Shown here piece after piece: positions 17,588-22,270 of a stretch of 64,000 bases of DNA. Origin of the DNA: Nocardioidaceae bacterium SCSIO 66511 (GTDB taxonomy: Bacteria; Actinomycetota; Actinomycetes; Propionibacteriales; Nocardioidaceae). The position numbers were made by a program, and so were the translations under genes. The stretch is taken from positions 4,154,001-4,218,000 of the forward strand of contig CP095846.1 in NCBI GenBank assembly GCA_023100825.1. Reading direction: 5' to 3'. The notes under the pieces were generated by a model. It saw only the letters and a list, made by a program, of their open reading frames with translations, ran no database searches and was not told the origin of the DNA. Positions within the stretch are counted from its first letter, which is position 1, and every line of letters begins with the position of its first letter.

Positions 17588-18778
17588 TCACGGCATCGGG
17601 TCCAGCCCGAGCAACGGGAACGCCTCCTTGCGGGTCGCCATGATCGACCGATCGAGCCACGTGCCCGGGTCGTACCCCTCGGTCCAGTCTCGGTACGAAA
17701 TGGCTTGGTTGTCGGTCATCCGCATCGGCGCCTCGCGGCCGCTGAGATCGTGTACGCGGCTCCGCCAGTTCGGTGGCGTCGCCGTCGTCGGATCGATCGG
17801 GCGGTCACCGACGATCGCCAGCAGATGGGTCCAGCTGCGAGGGACGACCTTGAGCACGGCGTACCCGCCGCCGCCGAGCGAGATCCAGCGGCTGTCCGGC
17901 AGCTTCGCCGCGAGATCGCGCACGGCGAGGTACGACGCGCGTTGGCCGTCGACGCTGAGCATCAGGTTCGTGAGCGGGTCGTTCGCATGGGAGTCGCAGC
18001 CGTGCTGGCTGACGATGATCTCGGGCTCGAACGCCTCCACCACCTGCGGCACCACGGCATGGAAGGCCCGCAGCCACCCCGAGTCGGAGGTGCCCGGCGG
18101 GAGAGCGACGTTGACGGCCGAACCTTCCGCGTCGGGCCCACCGACCTCGGTCGGTAGCCCGGTGCCAGGGAAGAGCGTCTGCGGCGTCTCATGCAACGAC
18201 ACGGTGAGTACGCGCGGGTCGTTGTAGAACACCTCCTGCACGCCGTCGCCGTGGTGTGCGTCGATGTCGACGTACGCGACCTTCGACGCGCCGTTGTCGA
18301 GCAGCCAGCGGATTGCCACCGCGGCATCGTTGTAGATGCAGAAGCCGCTGGCGTTGCCGGGCATCGCATGGTGCAGTCCACCGGCGATGTTGACCGCCCG
18401 CGTACGCTCGCCGGTCCAGACTCGTCGGGCGGCCTCTACCGATGCGCCGACGATGAGCGCGCTCGCGTCGTGCATGTGCTCGAACGTCGGGTCATCGTCG
18501 GTGCCGAGCCCGTACGCGACCTTCGGCTCGTACGGCCGCGCACTCACCTCGCGTACCGCCTCGATGTAGTCGCGTGTGTGCACGGTGGTGAGCAGATCGT
18601 CCGACGCAGACTGCGCCCCGACGATCGGTAGCACCGCATCGTCGATCACGCCGAGCTCGCGGGCAAGCGCGATCGTGAGCTCGATCCGTATCGGCGCCAT
18701 CGGGTGAGATGGCCCGAAGTTGTAGGAGGTGAGCTGCTCGTCGAAGACGGCGCATGCGGATCCGGGCACGTCTGTCAC
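17588..18778 (-). CDS. acuC: Acetoin utilization protein AcuC (class I histone-deacetylase-fold deacetylase)
   Basis: 396-residue zinc amidohydrolase of the arginase/deacetylase fold. Key parts: N-terminal YNFGPSHPMAPIR, the catalytic His pair region GGLHHAMPGNASGFC, the metal ligands in YVDIDAHHGDGVQEVFY, and a third ligand region SQHGCDSHANDPLTN. AcuC in Bacillus removes acetyl groups from acetyl-CoA synthetase; a similar protein-deacetylase role is inferred. GTG start at 18778 overlaps the stop of the molybdoenzyme gene (GTGA), so the two are translationally coupled. No acetyl-CoA synthetase or acetyltransferase gene is close. Confidence 0.9.
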   Translation of the reverse strand: MTDVPGSACAVFDEQLTSYNFGPSHPMAPIRIELTIALARELGVIDDAVLPIVGAQSASDDLLTTVHTRDYIEAVREVSARPYEPKVAYGLGTDDDPTFEHMHDASALIVGASVEAARRVWTGERTRAVNIAGGLHHAMPGNASGFCIYNDAAVAIRWLLDNGASKVAYVDIDAHHGDGVQEVFYNDPRVLTVSLHETPQTLFPGTGLPTEVGGPDAEGSAVNVALPPGTSDSGWLRAFHAVVPQVVEAFEPEIIVSQHGCDSHANDPLTNLMLSVDGQRASYLAVRDLAAKLPDSRWISLGGGGYAVLKVVPRSWTHLLAIVGDRPIDPTTATPPNWRSRVHDLSGREAPMRMTDNQAISYRDWTEGYDPGTWLDRSIMATRKEAFPLLGLDPMP

Positions 18779-21102
18779 GATAGACCGCGCGATCCGCCGA
18801 CTACCTGCGGTGGCTCGAAGGCGCGTACCTCCGGCAACTCTCCTGCCACACGCTCGATCTCGACAAGCGTCGAGCCCGGCGACGGACCCTGCGCCAACCG
18901 GGAGGTGCCTTCGTCTCTGGTGAGGACGTTCGGGTTGCCGTGCCGACACATCCCCTCACCCGACGCGCTCGGTGCGGGATCGAACCACGCGCCCGTCGCG
19001 ATCACCGCAACACCGGGTCGCCGGTTCGTGTCGAGACGCACGCCGGCCAGCATCGACCCGCGGTCGTTGAACACGCGCACGACGTCACCGTCACCGATGC
19101 CCCTCGCCGCGGCATCGTCGGGGTGCAGCGTGATCGGCTCGCGATCAGAGACCTTCGACTGTCGGCTGAGCGCGCCGCCGTCGAACTGCGAGTGGAGCCG
19201 GGTGCTCGGCTGGTTGGACAGCAGCTGCAGCGGGTACGTCTCCGCGAGAGCCGAGCCGAGCCACTCTCGCGGCTCCAGCCAGACCGGATGGCCGGGACAG
19301 TCGTCGTACCCGAAACCGGCGATGGTCTCGGAGTAGATCTCGATGCGGCCGGACGGCGTTGCGAGCCGGTACTCGTCGGGATCGTCGCGTAGCCGGCCGA
19401 AGTCGCCGGCGACAACGGACGTGGCCTCGGGAGTCTCGAACCCTCCTGCCCGCCAGAACTCCGCTGCGCTTGGCGCTTCGACACCGAGGTCGCCGAGCGT
19501 TCGGCGCGTACGCTCGTACAGCTCGTCGACCCATTCGTCGGCGGTACGCCCCTCGGTGAACTCCTTGTCGATACCGAGCACCTCGGCGATGCCGGAGAAC
19601 GCCTCGTAGTCGGTGCGTACGCCCGCTGGTGGTTCGGCGGCGCGTTCCATCGCCGACAACGACAGGTCACTCGAGCCGGCGGCGAAGTCGCGGCGCTCGA
19701 GCGGTGTCGCAACGGGGAAGACGATGTCGGAGAAGCGGGTGAGGGGGTTCCACCACGAGTCGTGGGCGATCACCGTCTCCGGACGCTGCCAGGCGCGGGA
19801 GAGCTTGTTGAGGTCCTGATGGTGGTGGAACGGGTTGCCGCCCGCCCAGTAGATGAGCCGCAGATCGGGGTACGTACGCCGCTGGCCGTTGTAGCCGTAC
19901 GTACCGCCCGGATCGAGCAGCGCGTCGGCGATGCGTGCCACCGGAATCGTCGTCGACACGGCGTTGTCGCCCTGCGGCAGGGAGGCAACGGGCCAACGAC
20001 GGGCGCGTACACCGGTCTTGTTGATGCCGAGCCCCGACGCGACTCCGCCGCCTGGCCGGCCCATACTGCCCGACATCGCGGCGAGCACGACGCCCATCCA
20101 GTACGGCTGCTCGCCGTGGTCTTGGCGCTGGATGGACCAGCTCAGGTTGATGACCGTTCGGCTGGTCGCGATCTGGCGGGCGAGGTCGCCGATCGCCGCC
20201 GCGTCGATGCCGCTGATCGCGGCCGCCCACTCGGGCGTTTTGGCTATGCCGTCGTCGAGACCGCGCAAGTAGCGTTCGAAACGGTCGTAGCCGACACAGC
20301 CTCGAGCGAGGAACTCTCGGTCGTGGAGGCCCTCGGCCTGCAGTACGTACGCCAGTGCAAGCATGACGGCGACGTCGGTGCCCGGCCGGATCGCCAGCCA
20401 GTCGGCGTCGAGCTCGGGCGCGGTGTCGGTGCCGAGCGGGGAGAGCGTGACGAATCGAACGCCGGCGTCCTTGGCCCTGCGCTGCCACTCGACCTGCTCT
20501 GCGCGACCCTGGCCGCCGGAGTTGAGCTGGGCGTTCTTGGTCGCCATGCCGCCGAAGGAGACGACAAGGTCGCCGTGCTCGGCGATCGCCGGCCACATCG
20601 CTCCGCGCTGCCACAGACTCCACGGGTCGCCGCCGATGATGTGCGGCAGGATGACCTCCATCGCACCGACGCTGTACGAGCCGACCGAGTCGGTGTAGCC
20701 GCCGAGGCACCGCAGGAACCGATGGATCTGGCTCTGCGGATGATGGAACCGCCCGGCACTCCCCCAGCCGTACGATCCGCCGTAGATCGCCTCGTTGCCG
20801 TGGGTGTCGATGACCCGGCGCAGCTCGGACGCGGCCAGCTCGGTTGCGCGCTCCCAGCTGACCGCCACGAATGGGTCGCTGCCCCGGTTGTTGCCCACAC
20901 GACTGGGACCGTTGTCGAGCCAGCCCTTGCGCACCATCGGCTCGGTCAGACGGAACGGCGCGTACAACGCATCGGTCATGCCCGGCCCGATCCGCGAGAC
21001 GGTCGAGTCGCCCGGCAGCGGGCGTACCTCGACCACTCGGCTGCCGTCCGACACGACGTCGTATCGGCCCCAGTGCAGCGCGGTGCGCGTCACTCTCGTC
21101 AT
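18775..21102 (-). CDS. Molybdopterin-dependent oxidoreductase, biotin/methionine sulfoxide reductase (BisC) type
   Basis: 775 residues, the size of cytosolic BisC. No twin-arginine signal and no N-terminal Fe-S cysteine motif, so it is a single-cofactor cytoplasmic enzyme. The predicted Mo-ligand serine lies in IYGGSYGWGSAGRFHH, and other family blocks are GSYSVGAMEVILPHIIG, YWAGGNPFHHHQDLNKL and a C-terminal cofactor-binding domain. The family reduces S- or N-oxides such as methionine or biotin sulfoxide, so protein or free sulfoxide repair is the likely job. The ATG at 21102 is chosen because it directly precedes the family N-terminus. Its 3' end overlaps acuC. Confidence 0.88.
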   Translation of the reverse strand: MTRVTRTALHWGRYDVVSDGSRVVEVRPLPGDSTVSRIGPGMTDALYAPFRLTEPMVRKGWLDNGPSRVGNNRGSDPFVAVSWERATELAASELRRVIDTHGNEAIYGGSYGWGSAGRFHHPQSQIHRFLRCLGGYTDSVGSYSVGAMEVILPHIIGGDPWSLWQRGAMWPAIAEHGDLVVSFGGMATKNAQLNSGGQGRAEQVEWQRRAKDAGVRFVTLSPLGTDTAPELDADWLAIRPGTDVAVMLALAYVLQAEGLHDREFLARGCVGYDRFERYLRGLDDGIAKTPEWAAAISGIDAAAIGDLARQIATSRTVINLSWSIQRQDHGEQPYWMGVVLAAMSGSMGRPGGGVASGLGINKTGVRARRWPVASLPQGDNAVSTTIPVARIADALLDPGGTYGYNGQRRTYPDLRLIYWAGGNPFHHHQDLNKLSRAWQRPETVIAHDSWWNPLTRFSDIVFPVATPLERRDFAAGSSDLSLSAMERAAEPPAGVRTDYEAFSGIAEVLGIDKEFTEGRTADEWVDELYERTRRTLGDLGVEAPSAAEFWRAGGFETPEATSVVAGDFGRLRDDPDEYRLATPSGRIEIYSETIAGFGYDDCPGHPVWLEPREWLGSALAETYPLQLLSNQPSTRLHSQFDGGALSRQSKVSDREPITLHPDDAAARGIGDGDVVRVFNDRGSMLAGVRLDTNRRPGVAVIATGAWFDPAPSASGEGMCRHGNPNVLTRDEGTSRLAQGPSPGSTLVEIERVAGELPEVRAFEPPQVVGGSRGLS

Positions 21103-21144: not shown

Positions 21145-21150
21145 TATGCT
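21145..21150 (+). promoter_or_regulatory. -10 element of the trpL-trpS transcript
   Basis: TATGCT ends 6 nt before the GTG of the leader peptide at 21157 and there is no Shine-Dalgarno sequence, so transcription and translation of trpL probably begin together. No good -35 is visible. It lies in the 54-bp divergent gap with the BisC-type gene. Confidence 0.5.
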
Positions 21151-21156
21151 GGCCGG

Positions 21157-21198
21157 GTGAGTACGCACCGAATCTGCACCTGGTGGCCCGCCTCCTAG
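21157..21198 (+). CDS. trpL: Tryptophan leader peptide (13 residues, tandem Trp codons)
   Basis: GTG-initiated reading frame encoding MSTHRICTWWPAS, with two consecutive TGG codons at 21181-21186 followed by four codons to the stop. It precedes trpS by 94 bp and overlaps the first arm of a set of alternative hairpins. This is the layout of a ribosome-mediated attenuation leader: stalling at the Trp codons when charged tRNA-Trp is scarce would favour the antiterminator. Confidence 0.85.
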   Translation: MSTHRICTWWPAS

Positions 21199-21257
21199 GC
21201 GGACCGGTTCTCGCGTACCCAACTCAAACCATCCATCCGCCTCGCACGGGGCGGATG
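21188..21257 (+). promoter_or_regulatory. Transcription attenuator of trpS
   Basis: Four mutually exclusive segments. Region 1 CCGCCT (21188-21193), inside the leader codons right after the Trp pair, pairs with region 2 AGGCGG (21197-21202). Region 2 GGCGGA (21198-21203) can instead pair with region 3 TCCGCC (21236-21241), forming the antiterminator. Region 3 CATCCGCC (21234-21241) pairs perfectly over 8 bp with region 4 GGCGGATG (21250-21257), the terminator, followed by TTGTGCTGTGTG. Stalling on TGG-TGG masks region 1, frees region 2 and permits read-through into trpS. Confidence 0.8.
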
Positions 21258-21292
21258 TTGTGCTGTGTGCGAGGCCGTCGAAGGGACGACCC

Positions 21293-22270
21293 ATGACACA
21301 CCAGCCCAGCCGGCAACTGAGCCTGATCACCCCAAGCGGACACCTGACACTCGGCAACCTGCTCGGTGCGCTCCGACCGATGCGCGATGCGACGTCGACC
21401 GGCGACTGCTTCTACGGCATCTCCGATCTGCACGCGTTGACGATCCCGCACGACCCGGCGACGCTGCGCTCCGTACGCGCCGAACTCGCGGCGTTGATGC
21501 TCGCTAGCGGACTCGACCCTGCCTCGGCGACGTTGTTCATCCAGAGCAGGGTGTCGACGCACAGCGAGCTGCTCTACCTGCTCGAGTGCACCGCTTCGAT
21601 GGGTGAGACCGGCCGGATGATCCAGTACAAGGAGAAGGGCCGTGGCCGCACCGACACTCGGGTCTCGCTGTTCACGTACCCGATCCTGATGGCTGCCGAC
21701 ATCCTGCTCTACCGTGCGACCGAGGTTCCGGTAGGCGAAGACCAGCGCCAACATGTCGAGCTCGCCCGAGAACTGGCCCAGCGGTTCAACCATCGCTACG
21801 GCGAGGTCTTCACCGTCCCGCGAGCCGTCACGCCGAAGGTCGCGGCCCGGGTGATGGACCTCTCGGATCCGACGGCCAAGATGAGCAAATCGGCGGCATC
21901 CGGCTCGGGCACGATCTTCCTGCTCGACCCGCCCGACGTCGTACGCCGCAAGGTCTCCCGCGCCGTCACCGACTCGCGCGGCATCGTCGCGTACGACCGC
22001 GAGGGCCAGCCTGGCGTAGCAAACCTGATCGACGTCGCGGCCGGATGCACCGGGCGCGCTCCGACCGAGATCGCCGCCGCGCACGGTACGTACGGTGCGC
22101 TGAAGAGCGCCGTCACCGACGCCGTCGTCGCAACGCTCGAACCGATCCAAAAGGCGTACGCAGACCTCTCCGCCGATCAGGTCGAAGCCGTGTTCGCCGA
22201 CGGATCGCGCCGGGCCACTGCGGCCGCCGCGCCGGTCGTCGATGCGGCGCGGCGGGCGATCGGGTTGTGA
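21293..22270 (+). CDS. trpS: Tryptophanyl-tRNA synthetase
   Basis: 325-residue class I synthetase that charges tRNA-Trp. The HIGH-type signature is PSGHLTLGNLLGALR near residue 15, DLHALTIP follows, and the KMSKS loop is ready-made as KMSKSAASGSG near residue 200. The ATG at 21293 has AAGGGA six bases upstream. It lies behind a tryptophan attenuator, so the enzyme is induced when tryptophanyl-tRNA falls. It converges on the NmrA-like gene with a 15-bp gap and no visible hairpin between them. Confidence 0.97.
   Translation: MTHQPSRQLSLITPSGHLTLGNLLGALRPMRDATSTGDCFYGISDLHALTIPHDPATLRSVRAELAALMLASGLDPASATLFIQSRVSTHSELLYLLECTASMGETGRMIQYKEKGRGRTDTRVSLFTYPILMAADILLYRATEVPVGEDQRQHVELARELAQRFNHRYGEVFTVPRAVTPKVAARVMDLSDPTAKMSKSAASGSGTIFLLDPPDVVRRKVSRAVTDSRGIVAYDREGQPGVANLIDVAAGCTGRAPTEIAAAHGTYGALKSAVTDAVVATLEPIQKAYADLSADQVEAVFADGSRRATAAAAPVVDAARRAIGL

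Follow-up and report, generated by a model that had tools for sequence, protein, structure and literature searches.

A Streptomyces-type leaderless tryptophan attenuator predicted upstream of an auxiliary trpS gene in a Nocardioidaceae bacterium

The trpS Locus and Its Leader

The window, the whole stretch of 64,000 nucleotides (64 kb) of Nocardioidaceae bacterium SCSIO 66511 that was analysed, carries on its forward strand, as with all leader features described below, a trpS gene at 21293–22270, which encodes an auxiliary tryptophanyl-tRNA synthetase (TrpRS) of 325 aa with a score of 288 bits on TIGR00233 (cut-off 177). This is the second of two trpS genes in the genome (4.6 Mb), and the family model gives a higher score to the copy at 1.13 Mb. 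At the position of the Gln in 'SGIQPSG' of Bacillus stearothermophilus TrpRS the product has a Thr, and among relatives the residue there is variously Thr, Lys, Met, or Gln; substitution at this position may be tied to resistance to inhibitors such as indolmycin. A divergent molybdopterin oxidoreductase gene (18775–21102) starts about 50 nt from the promoter of the trpS leader, and the short gap between the two genes holds both the leader and its –10 box. A Shine–Dalgarno-like GAAGGGA for trpS was recognized by eye at 21280–21286.

The leader promoter consists of a –10 box of the form TAnnnT (TATGCT, 21145–21150) with no recognizable –35 element, and the scan for sigma-70 promoters was empty there. 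Exactly 6 nt separate this box from a GTG at 21157, as the first-pass annotation of this DNA had stated, and the GTG opens the 13-codon leader open reading frame (ORF) that it had described (21157–21198; peptide VSTHRICTWWPAS), which is predicted to begin at transcript position +1 and ends with a TAG at 21196–21198. The regulatory Trp codons, TGG TGG, lie at 21181–21186. Across both strands of the 64 kb, this is the only leader with two adjacent Trp codons (WW leader) and a TAnnnT box 6 or 7 nt before its start.

Four arms follow from within the ORF onward, and the three mutually exclusive pairings proposed for them are all present. Arm 1 (CCGCCT, 21188–21193) does lie inside the leader, right after the Trp codons, and forms a 6-bp helix 1:2 with the AGGCGG at 21197–21202 of arm 2 (21197–21203); the whole of arm 2 (AGGCGGA) can instead form a 7-bp antiterminator helix 2:3 with TCCGCCT (21236–21242) of arm 3. 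Arm 3 (CATCCGCCTC, 21234–21243) pairs over its full length with arm 4 (GGGGCGGATG, 21248–21257) in the 3:4 terminator hairpin, a GC-rich helix of 10 bp closed by a loop of 4 nt, GCAC. The 3:4 helix is longer than the six to eight bases given previously for the arms. The isolated free energies of 1:2, 2:3, and 3:4 are approximately –10, –9, and –18.5 kcal/mol. No U-run follows 3:4 in the window, where the tail reads TTGTGCTGT, and a scan for terminators with a U-run was empty; such a run is usual at the terminators of trp-type attenuators. Taken alone, the sequence folds with no unusual stability (z –1.52, with 13/200 shuffles as good), so that the case for the leader must rest on comparison with other genomes.

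Conservation of the Leader in Relatives

In an order-level sample of 58 genomes, the trpS homologues split into a close clade with 54–80% identity and a distant, housekeeping-like group with mostly 41–49%, or mostly 41–50% once the class-wide search is included. Conservation of the WW leader and its arms had been set beforehand as a test of the proposal, and both were found at every one of the 28 loci of the close clade for which upstream DNA was available, counting that of the window: a short Trp–Trp ORF begins 136–253 nt before the start of the query match, and each of the helices 1:2, 2:3, and 3:4 can be formed in 28/28. The TAnnnT box precedes the leader start codon by exactly 6 nt in 23 loci and by 7 nt in 3 (26/28). 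This spacing is specific to the leaders, given that it occurs at 28 of 575 upstream ATG or GTG codons, 26 of which are leader starts, and at about 2 of the 547 others. No TAnnnT box precedes the leader in L006 and L008; the sequences before the leader start in L006, L008, L036, L037, and L049 are CACACT, CATGAT, or show no recognizable –10 box. The maintenance of the –10-to-start spacing among relatives agrees with the earlier suggestion of a leaderless leader, and the start of the leader ORF is, judged from sequence, probably leaderless.

The elements also occur in a conserved register. Counted from the first TGG, arm 1 starts after 4–9 nt and arm 2 after 15–17 nt throughout the 28 loci, and the leader stop follows after 9–15 nt in 27 of them, the exception being L010 with a stop 45 nt past the Trp codons. 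Native arms also pair better with each other than with those of other species: when they were permuted between species, irrespective of relatedness, the permuted arms equaled the native pairs in 0/2000 (1:2), 8/2000 (2:3), and 0/2000 (3:4) trials, and in L016 and L019 the arms have changed jointly (e.g., GGACGGC/GCCGTCC for 2:3). Several relatives, unlike the window, have a U-run directly after 3:4. In one related family (L015, L017, L021, L022, L024, L025, L027, and L030), the stem is followed by a U-tract in most terminators and preceded by an A-tract in some.

No leader of this kind was found at the housekeeping-type trpS loci examined (L001 and L032), and nothing similar lies upstream of the trpE-like genes of the SCSIO 66511 genome within the stretch searched. 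A class-wide draw of newly fetched loci (best matches) showed the leader in 23/28, 20 of these 23 with the –10 box; of the five loci lacking the leader, one is a truncated match and two have no more than 50% identity. One family of this draw (f22) encodes MTTRTCTQLWWAA-type peptides, matching the published Streptomyces TrpL2.

Probable Attenuation and a Fifth Complementary Region

Because of this comparison with relatives, we consider it very probable that the locus is a ribosome-mediated transcription attenuator of the auxiliary trpS, with a leaderless leader, that is induced when Trp-tRNA is short. We infer the transcription start, the stalling, the termination, and the induction, whether through a lack of Trp-tRNA or through inhibitors of TrpRS. 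Transcription would start at the GTG or within one base of it, so that the ribosome would load at the 5′ terminus of a leaderless mRNA. With ample Trp-tRNA, the ribosome would reach the TAG at the base of arm 2 and cover this arm, and the terminator 3:4 would form; with scarce Trp-tRNA, a ribosome stalled at the TGG pair would cover arm 1 and leave arm 2 free to form 2:3, and RNA polymerase would therefore read through into trpS. If the leader were not translated, 1:2 would form along with 3:4, and termination would result by default. The register fits a ribosome that covers only arm 1 when stalled at the Trp codons and covers arm 2 when at the stop, the size of the ribosome footprint underlying this coverage being established knowledge. 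The probable outcome is a spare tryptophanyl-tRNA synthetase that is switched on when charged tryptophan tRNA is short.

A further segment, region 5 (TGTGCGAGGC, 21266–21275), is complementary to the terminator apex (GCCTCGCACG, 21239–21248) and takes part in the fold of minimum energy predicted for the entire leader. As 3:5 and 3:4 are mutually exclusive, this would add a fourth exclusive pairing. The first-pass annotation had noted neither this region nor the status of the gene as a second trpS. Region 5 covaries with the apex between genera of the window's own family: for 17 sequences, the native pairs reach –22.2 kcal/mol against –18.8 kcal/mol for permuted pairs (sd 0.60, 0/5000, with relatedness ignored), and the 1:2 hairpin gave no signal when used as a control in the same permutation test. 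Examples of the apex/region 5 pair are GCCCACGGG/CCCGTGGGC in L006, CGCCTTCGGG/CTCGAAGGCG in L007, and GCCTCTCCG/TGGAGAGGC in L029. The order-wide values are –15.8 for native and –12.0 for permuted pairs (sd 0.52, 0/5000).

Region 5 is transcribed after the terminator and should thus not act in the first termination decision; any role would probably come after read-through. One reading is that control has two stages, in which attenuation by arms 1–4 is followed, in the read-through RNA, by a 3:5 pairing that removes the hairpin and alters access to the trpS start, so as to control translation or stability. The covariation described above, with its silent control and the pooled result for the order, speaks for this reading, as do averages over 28 sequences, unaccompanied by a shuffled control, in which the change from 3:4 to 3:5 modestly raises openness from 0.36 to 0.43 at the Shine–Dalgarno sequence (SD) and from 0.45 to 0.59 at the start codon. 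However, openness in the window itself is flat at the SD (0.51 to 0.52) and slightly lower at the start codon, 3:5 is overall less stable than 3:4 in 24/28 sequences, and the other families show no clear covariation of region 5 (f4, 281/5000; f22, 787/5000; f3, uninformative); we regard two-stage control as possible but unlikely. Somewhat more doubtful still is the idea that the fifth arm, behind a leaderless leader, invades the terminator apex after read-through and imposes a second decision on translation or mRNA stability. As a translational switch that sequesters the SD, region 5 was rejected, with weak effects in the averages only and none in the window.

Purely translational attenuation, with leader structures sequestering the trpS ribosome binding site and no premature termination, would accommodate a window hairpin 3:4 that lacks a U-run and an SD region that is partly paired in predicted folds. 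Nevertheless, the SD lies outside arm 4, which ends 22 nt before it, the 3:4 helices of some relatives are followed immediately by U-runs, and hairpin-induced termination has been reported for the Streptomyces counterpart (PMC8079986); this explanation is very improbable. A chance occurrence of a short two-Trp ORF in readily folding GC-rich DNA would suit the unremarkable z of –1.5 of the single-sequence fold, but is refuted by the conservation in 28/28 loci with a fixed register and covarying arms, and its probability is negligible.

Relationship to Known Tryptophan Leaders

One related system is the E. coli trp leader, which has regions 1–4, two adjacent Trp codons, a 5′ UTR with an SD, and a terminator with a U-run. 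The trpS leader resembles it and the Rfam tryptophan leader families in the layout of regions 1–4 and in the adjacent Trp codons, whereas the 5′ UTR, the SD, and the terminator U-run set the E. coli leader apart. It shares the three-helix logic and the Trp codons with actinobacterial trp operon attenuators (the Corynebacterium trp operon and Streptomyces trpE), but those control biosynthesis and this one a synthetase. Rfam searches at the gathering cut-off and at E 5 yielded no relevant family, the tryptophan leader families included; the single hit at E 5 was due to chance. For S. coelicolor trpRS1, ribosome-mediated attenuation was reportedly shown experimentally by Vecchione and Sello in 2010.

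The novelty implied earlier for an attenuator of a synthetase did not survive comparison with work on Streptomyces. In 2005, a comparative analysis led to the prediction of an attenuator upstream of S. avermitilis trpS2 (PMC1262725), and a reannotation of S. lividans by RNA-seq in 2021 mapped trpL2 (MMTRTCTQLWRAA) before trpS as a leaderless leader with two hairpins and no U-run (trpL2-trpS, SLIV_21112/21110), for which hairpin-induced termination was reported (PMC8079986). The same report found trpL1 to be likewise leaderless and a U-run not to be required in Actinobacteria (PMC8079986), and TrpRS1 of S. coelicolor is resistant to indolmycin (PMC9437257). Given this published work, the locus is of a known kind, a further case of the Streptomyces trpL2-trpS system, and a probably leaderless start is the norm for such leaders; the MTTRTCTQLWWAA-type leaders are, by their peptides, evidently the same device as Streptomyces trpL2. 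The pairing of region 5 may be undescribed, as no description was found in the literature searched, with the key paper on trpRS1 attenuation lying outside it.

The mechanism itself is of low novelty, with the fifth arm as a modest, testable addition. What emerges is a Streptomyces-type, probably leaderless Trp attenuator of an auxiliary TrpRS that is widely kept across the Actinobacteria, and the near-constant spacing between –10 box and leader start codon offers a tidy natural test of the coupling of leaderless translation to transcription. The window and Streptomyces trpL2-trpS have in common a leader peptide of roughly 13 codons in which Trp comes close to the end, two hairpins without a U-run, a position before a monocistronic trpS, and an auxiliary trpS beside a housekeeping copy; the leader described here differs in belonging to another order of Actinobacteria, in its peptide sequence, and in the presence of region 5, for which covariation with the terminator apex is seen in its own family.
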